A stretch of 64,000 bases of DNA from Acidobacteria bacterium SCN 69-37 (GCA_001724025.1 MEDJ01000022.1:62001-126000); one strand, 5' to 3'. Positions 15,416 through 23,142 are shown, numbered from the stretch's first letter. Notes: a model not told the origin generated them from the letters alone. Made by a program: numbers and translations.

Positions 15416-15715
15416 CTACTTGCGGGGCAGGACGGCGTCTTTCAACTGCTTGGCGATACGCGCCTTCACGACCGTCTTGGCGGGGATCTTGATCGTATCC
15501 CCCGTGGCCGGGTTGCGCCCTTCGCGCGCCTTCCGCTTCTGCACGACGAGCTTGCACATTCCCGGGAGCACGAACTCCCCGGACCGCTTGAGCTCCTTTT
15601 CGGCCAGCGTGTTCAGCTCGTCGAACAGATCGCGGACCTGCGTGCGCTTCAGGTCGAACTTGTCCGCGAAGTGCGCGAACAATTCCATCTTGCCCATGCG
15701 CCGGGCGTCTGCCAT
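15416..15715 (-). CDS. HU-family DNA-binding protein
   Basis: 99-aa HU/IHF-type nucleoid protein. The start MADARRMGKMELFAHFADK and the arm region FVLPGMCKLVVQKRKAREGRNPATGDTIKIPAK follow the family, including the RNPATGDTIKIPA block with the intercalating Pro. It ends in a basic tail. The ATG at 15713-15715 matches family length; 41 more in-frame codons upstream are non-coding leader. An unusually good promoter lies about 95 bp upstream. Its gene precedes lpdA by 114 bp. Confidence 0.93.
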   Translation of the reverse strand: MADARRMGKMELFAHFADKFDLKRTQVRDLFDELNTLAEKELKRSGEFVLPGMCKLVVQKRKAREGRNPATGDTIKIPAKTVVKARIAKQLKDAVLPRK

Positions 15716-15881: not shown

Positions 15882-15887
15882 TAGAAT
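15882..15887 (+). promoter_or_regulatory. Possible -10 box for a leaderless queF transcript
   Basis: TAGAAT ends 7 bp before the second in-frame ATG of queF (15895) and overlaps the first (15886). No Shine-Dalgarno sequence precedes either ATG, which fits leaderless initiation at 15895. No good -35 is visible. Confidence 0.35.
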
Positions 15888-16239
15888 GTCAAGCATGTCA
15901 TCGGTGCTCGAGACGTTCCCCAACCCGCGGCCGGAACGCGATTACGAAATCCAGATCCGCTGCCCGGAGTTCACCTCGGTCTGCCCCAAGACGGGCCAGC
16001 CCGATTTCGGCGAGATTGCCATCACCTACACACCCGACCAGCACTGCATCGAGCTGAAGTCGCTCAAGTACTACCTCCAGGGGTACCGCAACCAGGGGAT
16101 CTTCTACGAAGCGGTCACCAACCGCATCCTCGACGACCTGGTCGCCTGCTGCCAGCCCCGCCGGATGCGGCTGACCGGCGCCTTCTCCGCCCGCGGCGGC
16201 ATCACGACGACGGTCGTGGCGGAGTACGCCAGGAAATAA
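15886..16239 (+). CDS. queF: NADPH-dependent 7-cyano-7-deazaguanine reductase
   Basis: 117-aa QueF of the short unimodular type, reducing preQ0 to preQ1 in queuosine synthesis. The nitrile-attacking Cys33 in [12 protein letters not shown], Asp40 and the family motif ELKSLKYYL (E-x-K-S/A-x-K) are present, as is the [13 protein letters not shown] block. Start 15886 is given; ATG 15895 ([11 protein letters not shown]) is equally good and may be the true start given the TAGAAT box. It is divergent from HU and followed immediately by the 58-bp repeat array. No other queuosine gene and no preQ1 riboswitch is seen here. Confidence 0.95.
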
Positions 16240-16498
16240 CAGGTACGACGGGCGACTGGTGGGGCCGGCGACTTCCTCGGGCCCTCCTGATTTCAGGCGC
16301 GACAGGGGCGACGAGCCACTGGTGGGCCCACGCTGCCTGGGGCCGGTTATTCAGGTACGACAGGGACGACGGGCGACCGGTAGGCCCGCATCGCCTGGGG
16401 CCGGTTGTTCAGGTACGACGGGTACGACAGGCGAGCGGTGGGGCCGCACTGCCTGGGCCCGGGGTTTCAAGTACGACAGGTACGACGGCAACCTGGCA
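16240..16498. repeat. Imperfect 58-bp tandem repeat, about 4.5 copies
   Basis: Units begin with CAGG(T/C)(A/G)CGAC at 16240, 16294, 16352 and 16410 and CAAGTACGAC at 16468. Copies 2, 3 and 4 are each exactly 58 bp; copy 1 is 54 bp and more diverged; copy 5 is partial. Each unit carries a GTACGAC-rich start, a GGCGA(C/G)CGGT middle and a CTGGGGCCGGTT end. The spacing has no unique spacers, so it is not a CRISPR. It fills most of the 360-bp gap between queF and the helicase gene. A related single copy lies at 43417. Confidence 0.85.
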
Positions 16499-16536
16499 CC
16501 GCCCTTGCCCCTGATCCGTCCTGCTGCGCGAATTTC

Positions 16537-16572
16537 GGCCGGATTCCGGCCTGACGTTGCAATTTCTGCAAC
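16537..16572. promoter_or_regulatory. Two adjacent palindromes upstream of the helicase-methylase operon
   Basis: A perfect 7-bp inverted repeat GGCCGGA-T-TCCGGCC (16537-16551) is followed by a perfect 6-bp one GTTGCA-ATTTC-TGCAAC (16556-16572), ending 27 bp before the helicase ATG. The second half-site TGCAAC reappears at the start codon itself (ATGCAACG). A weak promoter-like pair (TTGCCC, 17 bp, GCGAAT) lies just upstream. These are candidate operators for a regulator not found in the window. Confidence 0.45.
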
Positions 16573-16599
16573 GGGTCGCGCTGTGAAGGATGGCAGGAA

Positions 16600-18996
16600 A
16601 TGCAACGTCCGCCGGTTCCCGGCTCGCTCGTCTGGCTGCGCCAGCGTCGCTGGCGCGTCCTCCACACCCAGGCCGATCGCCGCGTCGCCAGGCTCGACGT
16701 CGCCGGTCCCACCACCCGGCTGACGGTCGTCACGCCGTTCGATCGCCCGCGCCTCGTCACCCCGGATCGGCGACCGGTACGCGTGCGCCGCCAGCAGGCC
16801 CGCGCCCGACTGGCGGCCCTCGTGGCCGCAGCGCCCGGCGCGCGGCTCCCGCACACCGCCGTCGAGAGCCGGATCGAACTCTGGCCCCACCAGTTCGAGC
16901 CGGTCGCCGCCGTGCTCGACGGCCACCGCCGCCTGCTGATCGCCGACGAGGTGGGTCTCGGCAAGACGATTCAGGCAGGCCTGATCCTGGCCGAACTGAT
17001 CCACCGCCAGCCGATGACAACCGCGCTCGTCATCACGCCCGCCGGACTCTGCCGCCAATGGCGCGATGAACTCCGCCGGCACTTCGCGCTGGAGGCGCGC
17101 ACCATCGACGAAGACGTCGACTTCGCGATCGCCACCGGCTCCCGCGAGACGAATCCGTGGCGACGCCCGGGCCTCCGGATCGTCTCGGTCGATCACCTCA
17201 AACAGCCCCACGTGCTCGGGGGCCTGCCGCTCGATCCCTGGGACGTCCTCGTCATCGACGAGGCGCACACGGTGACGGGCGCGTCCGATCGCCACGAGGC
17301 CTGTGACGAACTCGGCCGGCGGGCCCGGCGCGTCATCCTGCTGTCAGCCACGCCCCACGATGGCGACGCCGCGCGGTTCGCCAGGCTCGTCCGCCTGGGC
17401 GCGCTGCCCTGCGAGGGCGACACGCTGACGGTATTCCGTCGCACGCGCACGGACGTCCGCCTGCCGCACGGACGCGTGGTGCGCTGGTGTCGCGTCGAAC
17501 CCGGGCCGGCGTTCGGCCGGCTGCTCGACACGCTCGGCGCCTTCGAGCGCGCCCTGCTGGCCGGGACGCGTGCGGGCACGCGCGATGCCGCCCTGCTGCT
17601 CCTGGCGGTCTTCCGCACGCGCGCGCTCTCCACGATCGCGGCGCTCGATCGATCACTCGCCCGCCGGCTCGCCTGGCTCGACACCCCTGCCGGAACGGAC
17701 GCCGACGCGTGGCGACAACAGCGGCTCGACTTCGACGACGACGGCGTCGGCAGCGACGAAGACACAGCGTGGACCACGGCGGACACCGGGGTCCCGCGGG
17801 CACGCGAGCGCGCGTGGATCGTGCGGCTCCGCGGCGCGATCTCGGCCATGCGCGGGCGCGATCCGAAGCTGCGCCGGGTGCACGCCCTGCTCACTCGCAC
17901 GACCGAACCGGTGGTCATCTTCACCGGCTTCCGCCACTCGCTCGACGCCGTCGTCCAGGCCATCGGCACGGTGCGGCAGGTGTCGGCCATGCACGGCGCG
18001 CAGCCGCCCACCGATCGCCAGCACGCACTCGATCGCTTCCTGGCCGGGGCCACGTCCGTACTGGTTACGACGGATGTCGGCGGGCAGGGGCTGAATCTCC
18101 AGTCACGCGCACACTGGCTGATCAACCTCGATCTGCCCTGGAATCCCGCGCGGCTCGAACAACGGATCGGTCGGCTCGATCGCCTCGGGCAGCCGACGCG
18201 CGTGCATGCCACGCTGCTCGTCGCCGGCCACGCCGTCGAACAGCCGCTGATCGCCTCGCTGTCGCGTCGGACGCACGCCGCGCAGCAGCGGCTCGGCTCG
18301 TCGACGCTGGCCGACGTCACGCCGCCATCGCCCCTCGCCCTGGCGACCACCGTCATCGCAGGCACCACGCCTGCACCTCCTGTGCGGCAGCCCGACATGC
18401 AGGTGCCCCTCTGCCACGCCTATCGTCGTGTTGGCCGCGCCTGTGTGACGGTCGTCGCGCGCCGGCGACGCCTGCGACAGCACTGGCACGGCCTGACGAC
18501 GCCCGGTGGCCGGCCGACGTGGACGGACGCGTGGTTCCCCTGCCGGCCGCCGCTGCCGGTCCGCGGCCTGGCCATTGTCGCGGTCCCGCTCATCGATGGG
18601 ACCGGCGACGTGATCGAACGCGGCCTCATCGCCCTTGGCACGGCCGATCCGTGGCGGGACGCGCGCGACAGCCACCTGCTGCCCGCCGTCGTCCGAGCCG
18701 CGGTGTCCCGCCGGGTCGAGGTTCGCCTCAGGCGCCTGCGCCCGTGGCTCCGCGACGTGTCGATCCGACGCGTGGTCGCCGAACGGGCCATCGCCCGTCA
18801 CCTGTATCTGGTCGGACACCCGCGCGCTGCGCAACTGGGCCTGTTCAGTCAGCGCGCCAGCACGGCCTTCGACGAGGCGAGGCGACGAGCCGCCATCGAG
18901 GCCACGCTGGCCGCCGCACGGATCCGGGTCGAGGAAGCCCGGGGCGTGCTGACATGCGGAGACCCGGTCATCGAGTGGATCGGCGAACGGTCATGA
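16600..18996 (+). CDS. SNF2-family helicase (RapA/DrmD-like) of a helicase-methylase pair
   Basis: 798-aa superfamily-2 ATPase of the SNF2/RapA type. N-terminal region of about 90 residues, then the Q-like ELWPHQFEPV, motif I DEVGLGKT (116-123), motif II DEAH (220-223), motif III LSATPH (248-253), a second RecA lobe with TTDVGGQGLNLQ, and motif VI QRIGRLDRLGQ (about 521-531). The 260-residue C-terminal region is basic and unassigned. The next gene, an adenine methylase, starts inside the stop codon (ATGA), so they are one operon. In class 1 DISARM an SNF2 helicase (DrmD) is paired with such a methylase (DrmMI), but no drmA, drmB or drmC is here. The role is most likely phage defence or site-specific modification, which is inference. 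Confidence 0.88.
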   Translation: MQRPPVPGSLVWLRQRRWRVLHTQADRRVARLDVAGPTTRLTVVTPFDRPRLVTPDRRPVRVRRQQARARLAALVAAAPGARLPHTAVESRIELWPHQFEPVAAVLDGHRRLLIADEVGLGKTIQAGLILAELIHRQPMTTALVITPAGLCRQWRDELRRHFALEARTIDEDVDFAIATGSRETNPWRRPGLRIVSVDHLKQPHVLGGLPLDPWDVLVIDEAHTVTGASDRHEACDELGRRARRVILLSATPHDGDAARFARLVRLGALPCEGDTLTVFRRTRTDVRLPHGRVVRWCRVEPGPAFGRLLDTLGAFERALLAGTRAGTRDAALLLLAVFRTRALSTIAALDRSLARRLAWLDTPAGTDADAWRQQRLDFDDDGVGSDEDTAWTTADTGVPRARERAWIVRLRGAISAMRGRDPKLRRVHALLTRTTEPVVIFTGFRHSLDAVVQAIGTVRQVSAMHGAQPPTDRQHALDRFLAGATSVLVTTDVGGQGLNLQSRAHWLINLDLPWNPARLEQRIGRLDRLGQPTRVHATLLVAGHAVEQPLIASLSRRTHAAQQRLGSSTLADVTPPSPLALATTVIAGTTPAPPVRQPDMQVPLCHAYRRVGRACVTVVARRRRLRQHWHGLTTPGGRPTWTDAWFPCRPPLPVRGLAIVAVPLIDGTGDVIERGLIALGTADPWRDARDSHLLPAVVRAAVSRRVEVRLRRLRPWLRDVSIRRVVAERAIARHLYLVGHPRAAQLGLFSQRASTAFDEARRRAAIEATLAAARIRVEEARGVLTCGDPVIEWIGERS

Positions 18997-21900
18997 CGTC
19001 GCCAATCCCCGGGATCGGCGGCGTTCTACTTCCGGAACGCTATATCGCATCACAGCTGTTCGACGACCAGGGCAGCGGCGTACCGGTGGGCACGTCGGCG
19101 CGGATCGATCGCTGGTGGCGGACGGTCCGCTGCGGCCCGGCGTCCGCCCTCCGCGCGATCTTCGACGAGATTGCGATGCCGCTCTTCGCGCTGCTCGGCT
19201 TCTCGGCGCACGATGCGGTCTTCGATGGCGCGTGGTGTCGCACCCGCCTCGTCACACCTCGCGGCACGCCTGTCGCGCTGCTGGTGACGACCTGGGCCCA
19301 TCGCCCGTCGTCGCGGTGGGCCGACCTCGCGCGGCACGCCACGCAGATCGGTGCGGCCTGGGGCTTCGTCCTGGCGCCGCCGTTCCTCAGCCTCGTTCCC
19401 ACGACCGGACATGCCTCGCGCCGCAGCGTGGACTTCGTGCTGCCCACGCTCGTCGATCGCGGCGCCACCGCGTATCTCGCCGGCATCGCACACGCGCAAC
19501 GTTTCGATCCCCATCCCCAACCCGGCTCGCGAACGATCGCGGCCCTGCTCGCCAGGGCGTCGGCCTTCCAGGACGACGTGCGGGCCGATCTGCAGCAGGG
19601 CGTCGAACGGGCGTGGCGCACGCTGACGCCCGCGATCGATCACGCCCGGTCCGATACACACCGCGCACCGGCAGGTCCGTCGGCGGCCGACGAGGCCCTC
19701 ACGCTGATCTATCGCATCCTCTTCCTGCTCTTCGCCGAATCGCGACACCTCGTTCCGGGCCAGGGCACACTCTACGCCCGCAGCTACGCCATGGGTCCGC
19801 TGTGCCGCGAGGCGATCGACGGCGAGGCCACGGGGCTGTGGGACACGCTCGCCGCCACGAGTCGGCTCTCGCGCTTCGGGTGCCGGACCGCCGATCTGCG
19901 CGTCACGGCGTTCAACGGCGCGCTGTTCGCGCGCGCCGCCGCCCCCGTGCTCGAACAGCGTCGGCGACGGACACGCGATCGCCATGACGGTCGCGACGAC
20001 GCCCTCAGGCAGGCGCTCGTGGCACTGGGATCGCGGCCATCGCGTGCCGGCCGCGAGACGATCCACTACCGCGATCTCGGCGTGGAGCAGTTGGGCGCCG
20101 TCTACGAGCGGATCCTCGATCTCGATCCCGATCACTCACCGACGACACGGGATCGTCCAATACGCACAGCGAGCCGGCACAGCCGCCTGCGTCGCGAGAC
20201 CGGCACCTTTTATACGCCGCGCCCGCTCGCCGAGTACGTCGTGCGGCGCACGCTTGCTCCGCTCGTCGACGGCGCGCCCGCCGATCGGATCCTCGATCTG
20301 CGCGTACTCGATCCCGCGATGGGCAGCGGGGCGTTCCTCGTGGCCGCGTGCCGCTACCTGGCCGCAGCCTACGAGGACGCACTCGTCGACGAAGGCCGCC
20401 TCGCGCCGGACGACGTCGACGATCACGCACGCGCCGGCATGCGTCGCCTGATTGCCGAACGATGCCTGGCTGGCGTCGACAGCAATCCGACGGCCGTCCA
20501 TCTGGCCCGCCTCTCGATGTGGCTCACCACGCTCGCGCGCGATCGACCGCTCGGGTTTCTCGATCATCGCCTGCGGACCGGCGACAGCCTGGTGGGTGCG
20601 TGGCCGGCGGATCTCGGGCGTACACGCCTGCGCGCCGCGCGGTCGACAGGCGCGCTCCCGCTGTTCGACGCCGCAGGGCTCGACGACGCGGTGTCAGCTG
20701 CCGCCTCGCCCATTGCGGCCATGCTCCGTCGTCCCGATGACACGGTGGCCGACGTCCATGCGAAGGCGCGCCTGTGGCAGCGCTTCACGTCGGATCAATC
20801 ACCCCTGCACCGATGGCGCCTGGCCGCGCACGTCTGGTGCGCGCGCTGGTTTGCCGAGGACGACGTGCCGGGCGAGGCGGAGACGCGGGCGCTGATCGAC
20901 GCCATCACGCGCGCCGATCGCACGCTGAGCACGCCGCACGTGGCGCGTCGCCTGCGCCAGGCCGCCAGCGTGGCGGCCGCGCACCGCTTTTTCCACTGGC
21001 CGCTCGAGTTTCCCGACGTCTTCTTCGATGCGGGTGGTCACGCCTCGCCCACAGCCGGCTTCGATGCCGTCATCGGCAATCCGCCGTGGGAAATGCTGCG
21101 GCGCGATGCGGGAGACGCCGGCGCGCGTGCCACCGCGCTGTTCCGCTACGTTCGTCACGCGGGTCAATATCCCTCGTGTGGCGGCGGGCACCTGAACCTG
21201 TATCAAGCGTTCGTCGATCGCACACTGGCGCTCGTGCGGCCTGGCGGGCGGATGGGACTCGTCCTGCCGTGGAGCATCGCGACGGATGACGGTGCGGCGG
21301 CCCTGCGTCAGCGATTGTTCGAGGAGACGCGGATCGATCTCGTGGTCGGACTCGACAACGCCGACGGTCTCTTCCCGATCCACCGCGGCCTGCGGATGGC
21401 CGTCGTGGCGGCGACGCAGGGCGGTGTCACGTCGCACCTGCGCGCGGTCTTCGGCGTGCGCCGGCGTGACGACCTCGATGCGCTCCCCGCTCGCGGTGTG
21501 GAGGGCGCGCCGGCCGTGACCATGAGTAATGCCGACGTTCAGCGCGCGGGTGGTCCGACGCGGCGCATCCCCGACATCCGCCAGCCGAGGGATCTCGATC
21601 TGCTGTTGACGCTCAGCCGCCGGTTCGCGCCGTTGTCGTCGACACACGGCTGGCAGATGGCGTTCGGACGCGAACTGAACGCCACGGACATCCGCACAGA
21701 ACGCCGCACCGGCACCACCGACGGCGTCCCTGTCGTCGAGGGCAAGCACCTGGCTCCGTTCGTCGTGGATGTCGCATCAGCGACGCGGTTGCCCGTCGAG
21801 GCCGTGTACCGGCGGCTGCCGCGCCGGCGCCTCGATCATGCGCGGGTGGGCTATCGCGACGTCTCGGCCGTCGGCAACCGGCTGACACTCATCGCCGCCG

Positions 21901-22349
21901 TCATTCCGGGCGGCATGGTCACCACGCACACGGTCTTCACGTCGAAGACGCCGATCGGCCCGTTCGCGCGGCACTTCCTGTGCGCGTGCCTGAACTCGTG
22001 GGTGCTGAACCTGGTGGTCCGACTGCTGATGGGCGGGCACGTGACGACGACGCTGGCCGAGAGCCTGCCGGTGCCTGTCTGGCGAGGCGACGACGGGGAT
22101 CGACGGATAGCGGCCATCGCGCGGGTCTGCGCCAGTCGGCGCGCGCCCGAAGGAATCCAGGCCATGCTCCAGGCCCTGGTGGCCCGTCGGTTCGAGCTGA
22201 CGCGTCAGGAGTTCGCTCACGTCCTGGAGCGATCGCCGCTCGTGCCTGATGACGAACGGCGCGAGGCGCAGCAGTGCTTCGATCGATTGGAGAGTGGGCT
22301 GACAGATCTCAGGCGCCAGGTACGTCGCGCAGCTGAGCCGCTTCCGTGA
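18993..22349 (+). CDS. Large N6-adenine DNA methyltransferase (Eco57I/DrmMI-like)
   Basis: 1118-aa methylase. SAM-binding motif I DPAMGSGAF starts at Asp440 and is preceded by the YTPRPLAEYVVRR helix typical of gamma-class enzymes; catalytic motif IV NPPW is at 696-699. The 420-residue N-terminal region resembles the N-terminal part of Eco57I-like proteins (a long LARHATQIGAAWGFVLAPP section where many have an LVTNG strand) but shows no convincing PD-(D/E)xK residues, so nuclease activity is not supported. The last 350 residues look like a target-recognition part (EGKHLAPFVV, later TTTLAESLPVPVW). The start at 18993 is coupled to the helicase stop; the open frame upstream only reads through the helicase gene. 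The 3' end overlaps convergent hemD by 41 bp. Confidence 0.9.
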   Translation: MTSPIPGIGGVLLPERYIASQLFDDQGSGVPVGTSARIDRWWRTVRCGPASALRAIFDEIAMPLFALLGFSAHDAVFDGAWCRTRLVTPRGTPVALLVTTWAHRPSSRWADLARHATQIGAAWGFVLAPPFLSLVPTTGHASRRSVDFVLPTLVDRGATAYLAGIAHAQRFDPHPQPGSRTIAALLARASAFQDDVRADLQQGVERAWRTLTPAIDHARSDTHRAPAGPSAADEALTLIYRILFLLFAESRHLVPGQGTLYARSYAMGPLCREAIDGEATGLWDTLAATSRLSRFGCRTADLRVTAFNGALFARAAAPVLEQRRRRTRDRHDGRDDALRQALVALGSRPSRAGRETIHYRDLGVEQLGAVYERILDLDPDHSPTTRDRPIRTASRHSRLRRETGTFYTPRPLAEYVVRRTLAPLVDGAPADRILDLRVLDPAMGSGAFLVAACRYLAAAYEDALVDEGRLAPDDVDDHARAGMRRLIAERCLAGVDSNPTAVHLARLSMWLTTLARDRPLGFLDHRLRTGDSLVGAWPADLGRTRLRAARSTGALPLFDAAGLDDAVSAAASPIAAMLRRPDDTVADVHAKARLWQRFTSDQSPLHRWRLAAHVWCARWFAEDDVPGEAETRALIDAITRADRTLSTPHVARRLRQAASVAAAHRFFHWPLEFPDVFFDAGGHASPTAGFDAVIGNPPWEMLRRDAGDAGARATALFRYVRHAGQYPSCGGGHLNLYQAFVDRTLALVRPGGRMGLVLPWSIATDDGAAALRQRLFEETRIDLVVGLDNADGLFPIHRGLRMAVVAATQGGVTSHLRAVFGVRRRDDLDALPARGVEGAPAVTMSNADVQRAGGPTRRIPDIRQPRDLDLLLTLSRRFAPLSSTHGWQMAFGRELNATDIRTERRTGTTDGVPVVEGKHLAPFVVDVASATRLPVEAVYRRLPRRRLDHARVGYRDVSAVGNRLTLIAAVIPGGMVTTHTVFTSKTPIGPFARHFLCACLNSWVLNLVVRLLMGGHVTTTLAESLPVPVWRGDDGDRRIAAIARVCASRRAPEGIQAMLQALVARRFELTRQEFAHVLERSPLVPDDERREAQQCFDRLESGLTDLRRQVRRAAEPLP

Positions 22350-23142
22350 CCAGCAGGCCCATCTTCGGATGACTGGGTTCGAACGACGGCTCGAGGTCGT
22401 GGCGGCGGAGTTCGGCAGAGGAGGAAGGACCAATCGACCCGATGACGACGCGACCGAGCGCCGCTTTCAGATCGGCCTCGAGGCCCATCTCGGCCGCGAC
22501 CTTCAGGAAGTGAACGATCTGGATGCCCGAGGTCACGAGCATGACGTCCACGCGCCCGTCGACGACGGCGCGCACCGCCTCACGCAGCGGCTCGAGATCG
22601 TCCGGCATCGCCCACTGATACGTCGGCACGGCGGTGACGATGGCCCCGGCGCCCTGTAATGCGTCGAGCAGGTCCGTGTTCGGGACGCCGTACTCCTGCA
22701 CCGCGATCCGCTTGCCGGCCAGGGGCCACTCGGCGGCACGGGCCTCGAGCGTGGCCATCAGTTCGCGCCAGGTGTTCGGCTCGGGCGCGTTGGCCCACAC
22801 AGGCACCGAGAGTTCACGCAGCACGCCCGCGGGCTTCGGCCCGCGGGCAATGATCCGTGTGCGTCGCAGCGCGTCGACCAGCGGCGCCCGGCTGCCCGCG
22901 CGGGCGGTGGCATCGAGCAGGGCATGAATCCCGACGCCGGTCAGGAAGATGACGGCGTCGAACCGACCGGCAATGATCCCCTCGGCCAGCGCCAGCGCGT
23001 CGTCGTCAGACTCGCGCGCGACCTCGCGCATGGCGGGCGCGACGATCGGGCGGCCGCCGAACGTCTCGATGAGACTCGCGATCTGCCGCGCGCGTCGGCT
23101 CTCGAGCGCCAGCACCGTCCGATTGTCGAAGCCATCAGCCAT
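22309..23142 (-). CDS. hemD: Uroporphyrinogen-III synthase
   Basis: 277-aa HemD-family protein, which cyclises hydroxymethylbilane with inversion of ring D in tetrapyrrole synthesis. The two-lobe layout is seen in NRTVLALESRRARQIASLIETFGG at the start (read as VLALESR..), the FLTGVGIHALL strand-helix, IARGPKPAGVL, a second lobe with AVQEYG and VTAVPTYQW, and the closing VIGSIGPSSSAELRR. Sequence conservation in this family is low, but these blocks are diagnostic. ATG start. No other hem gene is adjacent. The last 41 bp overlap the end of the methylase gene on the other strand. Confidence 0.85.
   Translation of the reverse strand: MADGFDNRTVLALESRRARQIASLIETFGGRPIVAPAMREVARESDDDALALAEGIIAGRFDAVIFLTGVGIHALLDATARAGSRAPLVDALRRTRIIARGPKPAGVLRELSVPVWANAPEPNTWRELMATLEARAAEWPLAGKRIAVQEYGVPNTDLLDALQGAGAIVTAVPTYQWAMPDDLEPLREAVRAVVDGRVDVMLVTSGIQIVHFLKVAAEMGLEADLKAALGRVVIGSIGPSSSAELRRHDLEPSFEPSHPKMGLLVTEAAQLRDVPGA

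Follow-up and report, generated by a model that had tools for sequence, protein, structure and literature searches.

ARMADA, a disARM-related antiviral defence array, comprises a BrxHII/RapA-like helicase (ArmA), a PglX-like methylase (ArmB), and a YprA-like helicase (ArmC) (PMC12458937). It has a helicase and a methylase in common with class 1 DISARM, its anti-phage protection requires the ATPase of ArmA and the NPPW motif of ArmB, and the E. coli system requires all four of its genes (PMC12458937). In class 1 DISARM, DrmD and DrmMI stand with DrmA, DrmB, and DrmC, of which DrmC has been reported as non-essential. A DNA adenine methylase can also serve natural transformation, as DpnA of the pneumococcal DpnII system is a competence-induced methylase that protects imported DNA (PMC3573125). 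Here, we describe a helicase gene (HEL) and a methylase gene (MET) in a 64,000-nucleotide stretch of DNA from Acidobacteria bacterium SCN 69-37 (GCA_001724025.1, MEDJ01000022.1:62001-126000), which we call the window and in which positions are counted from the first letter. We lean, at slightly better than an even chance, toward reading the two as an ancestral stand-alone helicase–methylase module placed in the natural-transformation regulon to mark or process incoming DNA.

Both open reading frames are complete. Profile matches and motifs identify HEL (16600-18996, + strand; 798 aa) as a RapA/BrxHII/DrmD-like SNF2 helicase, with the Pfam domains SNF2-rel_dom and Helicase_C, DEVGLGKT (motif I) at residues 115-122, DEAH at 220-223, and EQRIGRLDRLGQ (motif VI) at 520-531; RapA is its nearest solved relative. 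MET (18993-22349, + strand; 1118 aa), a PglX/BrxX/DrmMI/ArmB-like N6-adenine DNA methylase with the Pfam domains Eco57I (66 bits) and N6_Mtase, overlaps HEL by the four nucleotides ATGA. Its VLDPAMGSGAF and NPPW sequences are the motif I and motif IV by which N6-adenine DNA methyltransferases of the gamma class, PglX/Eco57I type, are recognized. DPAMGSGAF and NPPW are present in 24 of 24 aligned orthologues, and the catalytic motifs of HEL are unbroken in the same 24. A first-pass annotation of this DNA had described a complete helicase gene and a methylase gene with an ATGA junction and these motifs, and each of these points is confirmed. MET is likely to be an active N6-methyladenine methylase.

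Gibbs sampling of HEL promoters from the window's order recovered a conserved palindromic 15-mer, TKGCARWWWYTGCMA, hereafter the operator, with a score of 383 vs 183-196 in shuffles; widths of 13, 14, and 16 scored worse. Gene starts in the draft genomes are predictions from a codon model. The window holds two copies: operator 1, TTGCAATTTCTGCAA, at 16557-16571, lies 43 bp before the HEL start, and operator 2, TGGCAGGAAATGCAA, at 16591-16605, lies 34 bp from operator 1 and overlaps the HEL start codon. At least two sites occur in 21 of 35 HEL promoters, with a successive spacing of 33-34 bp in 19 of 22 cases. The palindromic upstream sites noticed in the first-pass annotation are these two, and they prove to be an order-wide operator that is common to DNA-uptake genes. 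Upstream of HEL, no Rfam match to an RNA regulator was found, the fold of 16500-16650 exceeds shuffles in stability only slightly (z -2.1), and promoter and terminator scans gave nothing useful.

In the genome that contains the window, 16 places match the operator at no more than one mismatch, vs 4 for a reversed control. Reading of the flanks, with a Pfam check, places the operator before recA, dprA-topA, comM, radC, comF, and comEC, and at dprA, comM, radC, and comEC it occurs as pairs 32-34 bp apart. The genes comEC, comF, dprA, comM, radC, and recA, together with those for pseudopilins, constitute a DNA-uptake set. Six uptake or recombination genes are found among 24 neighboring genes (p ~1e-10, for a set assumed to number 15 in 3900 genes). 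In eight other genomes, the exact consensus has 24 sites and the reversed-pattern control has none. The operator precedes comM, HEL, dnaX, dprA-topA, and pilD/pseudopilin genes in genome G029, comEC in G019, and pilD/pseudopilins in G003; in G001, a genome that no longer has the pair, it precedes comF and radC.

We examined comM and dprA promoters with a matrix derived from HEL promoters only, applied to homology-anchored windows with a threshold score of at least 8. For comM, 10 of 26 genomes, spread over eight families, reach this score (p 1.4e-14 at a shuffle rate of 0.9%); for dprA, 4 of 29 do so (p 1e-4), most of them members of families f1 and f5. Membership of a competence regulon is judged by a cis-regulatory site in common with comEC, dprA, comM, and comF, and the pair has such a site. 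By these shared sites, the pair is very likely under the same regulator as the competence genes; because the operator is common to the DNA-uptake set, the pair would most likely be expressed in competence. A search of the literature for methylomes of Luteitalea and for competence in Acidobacteria yielded no data bearing directly on either.

Copies of the operator were also seen near other genes. Four similar small coiled-coil proteins of the window genome (L329, 3181-3840 and 5421-5915; L333, 2630-3010; L334, 2122-2448) each lie 60-190 bp from a copy; they contain FxQIDARFxQVDARF repeats and match no Pfam family above the cut-off. Two genes for Uma2 (PF05685) putative nucleases, from two families, have the operator ~100-170 bp upstream (L332, 2328-2930; L256, 2335-2889). 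In G029, a perfect operator pair (34 bp; L250, 3009-3057) precedes the gene of a radical SAM protein beside an NtrC-like response regulator, a possible regulator or regulon member, and in G027 an exact copy (L263, 2976-2990) lies 118 bp upstream of clpC.

We determined the distribution of the pair in 396 genomes of the phylum, each at least 85% complete, of which 44 are from the window's order (that of Luteitalea, which we take to be Vicinamibacterales) and 352 are others. Presence was judged by a MET homologue at E<=1e-60 in draft genomes, some of them incomplete. MET is present in 31 of the 44 genomes of the order and in 0 of the 352 others. The pair is usually single copy, often at a locus with queF and the gene of an HU-family protein (the queF/HU locus) and mostly at one fixed chromosomal place, and its two-gene form is seen across 12 families. 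The first-pass annotation proposed that a separate system would be supported if many genomes had a two-gene unit of this kind with no drmABC. Such a recurrent unit is what we observe, and of 120 genomes of the order only 11 have drmB.

Quartet agreement with the RpoB tree is 0.908 for MET and 0.907 for HEL, vs 0.337 and 0.330, respectively, with shuffled names. Ratios of nonsynonymous to synonymous substitution rates (dN/dS) are 0.18-0.42 within genera or families, with higher values from partly saturated pairs, and relative to RpoB the evolution of MET is 4.5 times and that of HEL 5.9 times faster. Genomes without the pair retain the queF-HU locus, and in four of them (L203, from the window's own genus, L204, L209, and L212) scraps of HEL or MET are found there. 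Because the trees match RpoB, selection is purifying, and scraps remain at empty loci, the pair is a mainly vertically inherited, often-lost unit; it is present order-wide under the common operator, and that it is inherited vertically is nearly certain. A mobile island was rejected on the fixed locus, the tree congruence, and the scraps at empty sites. A viral origin was also rejected, as viral contigs hold only distant relatives (21-35% identity).

The predicted structure of MET (mean predicted local distance difference test, pLDDT, of 83) relates the protein to other methylases. In this model, residues 190-1085 align with the BREX protein BrxX/PglX over 657 residues (Z 25.2), and the closest fold by Z is that of CamA (29.3). 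MET differs from PglX/BrxX in having an extra N-terminal nuclease-like domain, and no BREX genes occur in the neighborhoods examined. The catalytic methylase region, residues 396-820 (20178-21452, + strand), contains DPAMGSGAF and NPPW and is followed by a putative target-recognition region, residues 821-1030 (21453-22082, + strand). The mean identity of the latter is 44% vs 29-61% for other regions, so its variability is not above that of the rest of the protein. A recognition region that, in these alignments, is not hypervariable differs from the expectation of an arms race over specificity.

The N-terminal domain of MET, residues 1-190 (18993-19562, + strand), has a predicted restriction-endonuclease-like fold. 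Modelled alone (pLDDT 87), it aligns best in VIA-align with the nuclease domains of DrdV (Z 8.5), BpuSI (8.3), and HsdR (6.8); Foldseek alone gave no significant match for this domain, and the nuclease-like assignment rests on VIA-align. In 24 orthologues, as read by eye from the alignment, neither an acid nor a lysine is conserved in the strands expected to bear D and ExK (residues 81-99), in agreement with the first-pass annotation, which had seen no nuclease residues in the methylase. The PD-(D/E)XK nuclease with catalytic residues that characterizes type IIG and type ISP enzymes is not found in MET. Because no acid or lysine is conserved where D and ExK belong, the predicted domain is probably a degenerate, dead nuclease.

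Several observations weigh against our preferred reading. A clear dprA site is confined to families f1 and f5, and comM is without a site in ~11 of 26 genomes. Operator copies also accompany genes outside the classical competence set (Uma2, coiled-coil proteins, clpC), and unrelated genes contain or adjoin some of the exact sites. The sites at recA, radC, and dnaX-recR would also suit a DNA-damage regulon. Given its frequent loss and an evolution 4.5-5.9 times faster than that of RpoB, the pair is dispensable and may yet serve defence, and a few supported tree conflicts (e.g., G031) leave room for some transfer.

Defence could itself be coupled to competence: the pair, as a pared-down ARMADA-like sensor, would protect the cell during DNA import through an effector in trans, either an MrfA-like YprA helicase or a nuclease, for instance Uma2, that has the operator as well. 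The pair and ARMADA have both protein types, adjacent and with the helicase followed by the methylase. Relatives outside the order (23-32% identity) include some that sit in a row of a large YprA/DruE-type helicase, HEL, and MET, which is the layout of ARMADA type I, and the nearest of them are in DISARM/ARMADA-like loci with YprA/DruE-type helicases. In keeping with such a sensor are also the occurrence of the operator at Uma2 genes in two families and the dependence of ARMADA protection on the ArmA ATPase and the ArmB NPPW motif (PMC12458937). However, no YprA-like helicase lies beside the pair in the window or at orthologous loci, the pair lacks ArmD, and no nuclease is linked to it, whereas ARMADA in E. 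coli needs its full set of four genes (PMC12458937). The only MZB protein of the window genome, an ~890-aa open reading frame on another contig (MZB/DUF1998), could supply the effector, and an MZB/DUF1998 protein is present in 34 of 36 genomes, but these include G001, which has lost the pair. Defence systems seldom have a fixed chromosomal locus and mainly vertical descent, and these features, together with restriction to one order and an operator in common with competence genes, also set the pair apart from ARMADA. We consider a competence-coupled defence rather unlikely. Of the minimal defence or modification system proposed in the first-pass annotation, modification fits the proteins, and defence is conjectural.

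Alternatively, the regulon defined by the operator could serve recombination in general or the response to DNA damage, and not competence, with the pair aiding repair. The sites at recA, radC, and the dnaX-recR operon are what such a regulon would contain, but comEC, comF, dprA, comM, and the pilD/pseudopilin loci bear sites too. In addition, an autoregulated LexA would be expected among the targets, yet no lexA, imuA/imuB, or dnaE2 was found in the flanks of near-consensus sites in the window genome (flanks read; lexA itself not located). We regard a repair role under such a regulon as unlikely.

The restriction to one order, vertical descent, single copy, and non-hypervariable recognition region of MET would also suit a housekeeping epigenetic methylase specific to the lineage, comparable to CamA, Dam, or CcrM, that regulates the cell's own genes, with the operator only timing its expression. 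CamA of Clostridioides difficile, the closest structure by Z, is likewise a lineage-restricted adenine methylase without a nuclease and is universally kept. However, CamA (577 aa) has no helicase partner and lacks the N-terminal parts of MET, whereas here a translocase partner is present, the operator is common with DNA-uptake genes, and the pair has been lost frequently and independently, even inside one genus. We regard this explanation as decidedly unlikely.

The likeness to class 1 DISARM lies in the DrmD-like and DrmMI-like proteins themselves. As the first-pass annotation had noted, DrmA, DrmB, and DrmC do not accompany the pair: the window genome has no match to DrmB (NF038324), no DrmA or DrmB neighbors occur in the window or at orthologous loci, and no DrmC was found in the neighborhood of the pair, the rest of the genome not having been scanned for PLD proteins. 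The suggestion in the same annotation of a DISARM remnant, which would mean that this strain has lost drmA, drmB, and drmC from a class 1 island, was rejected as highly improbable: the best PADLOC models are DrmD for HEL (209 bits) and DrmMI for MET (354 bits, E 4e-106; a family related, not identical), but HEL reaches only 237.5 bits against NCBIfam DrmD (NF038317), far below the cut-off of 610, and the two-gene form recurs order-wide across 12 families with no motif lost in 24 orthologues, purifying selection, and mainly vertical descent. A deep origin of the pair from DISARM/ARMADA is possible.

Other helicase–methylase loci occur in the order (L065, L066, L067, and L068), the last three with a further related large protein nearby, and G051 has DrmB-family matches elsewhere in its genome. 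The order therefore contains DISARM/ARMADA-like systems as well as the vertical pair.

Our preferred reading, a stand-alone module in the natural-transformation regulon, would work as follows. The pair would be a DNA translocase and an adenine methylase, derived from the pair common to class 1 DISARM and ARMADA and handed down in the order from an early ancestor; in many genomes it still lies next to queF/HU, and it has been deleted repeatedly. It would have come under the operator of the DNA-uptake and recombination genes (comEC, comF, dprA, comM, radC, recA), and the pair would be made at the onset of competence. MET, guided by its recognition domain, would place N6-methyladenine on imported or freshly integrated DNA, and HEL would translocate along that DNA, presenting sites or clearing bound protein; the dead N-terminal nuclease-like domain may only bind DNA or HEL. 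As with DpnA in pneumococcus, the new DNA would receive the resident mark before replication or restriction meets it.

We favor marking of imported or newly integrated DNA because competence-induced DpnA does so in pneumococcus (PMC3573125). DpnA is a DNA adenine methylase recruited into the competence regulon and in this respect a precedent for the proposed function, but it belongs to another methylase family, has a single-stranded DNA substrate and a restriction-enzyme partner, and is expressed from a sigma-X promoter, not a palindromic operator (PMC3573125). The pair probably handles or marks imported DNA and is not a broken defence island; its methylation, competence induction, action on imported DNA, and purpose are what we infer from the proteins and their operator. 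Action on transforming DNA is plausible, at a little under an even chance. Domestication of a DISARM/ARMADA-type pair by the whole order, in which it would belong to the competence regulon and imprint incoming DNA, is a more tentative proposal, and a specific function in self-marking of DNA is doubtful.

The genes around the pair agree with the flanks given in the first-pass annotation, queF by reading and hemD by PF02602. The conserved upstream neighbor queF (15886-16239, + strand; read from the sequence) is a locus marker outside the unit, and an HU-family DNA-binding protein (Bac_DNA_binding; 15416-15697, − strand) is a further conserved neighbor. The convergent hemD (22309-23142, − strand) overlaps the 3′ end of MET by 41 bp, tail to tail, and is not conserved beside the pair elsewhere. 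Among 41 neighborhoods examined, queF is present in 20 and HU in 17. HEL adjoins MET in nearly all of 40 fetched neighborhoods, where queF and HU recur on one side and sulfite-exporter and ketopantoate-reductase genes on the other. The junction is an ATGA overlap or within ~50 bp in most orthologous loci, and a few copies of the pair in draft genomes are broken. Downstream genes were rejected as additional members; the NrfD and molybdopterin genes beside MET at some loci encode redox enzymes and are not universal.

Between queF and HEL lie four copies of a 58-bp tandem unit (16239-16488). The first-pass annotation had seen this repeat at the border of the operon, where it is indeed present, but it is not specific to the operon and was rejected as part of the system, the family having 54 matches in the genome. 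Several of these places are inverted pairs (e.g., G000 C10 75017+/75124- and C9 449496+/449794-). With 54 genome places, several of them inverted pairs, the units form a dispersed REP-like family.

A module known from mobile defence islands is here a vertically inherited chromosomal component of a whole order, under what is very likely the switch of the DNA-uptake genes. This ties phage-defence modification enzymes to natural transformation in an abundant, poorly tractable soil phylum. Among these bacteria, the operator is the first candidate for control of a competence regulon, as the literature searched yielded no previous report; with it, both the regulator and the methylation mark become open to direct test, and transformation of these bacteria could be made easier. 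If the domestication reading is true, this would be, to our knowledge, the first such role for this defence module. The pair would then be a translocase-driven counterpart of DpnA, and Acidobacteriota would have a competence operator that had not been described before.

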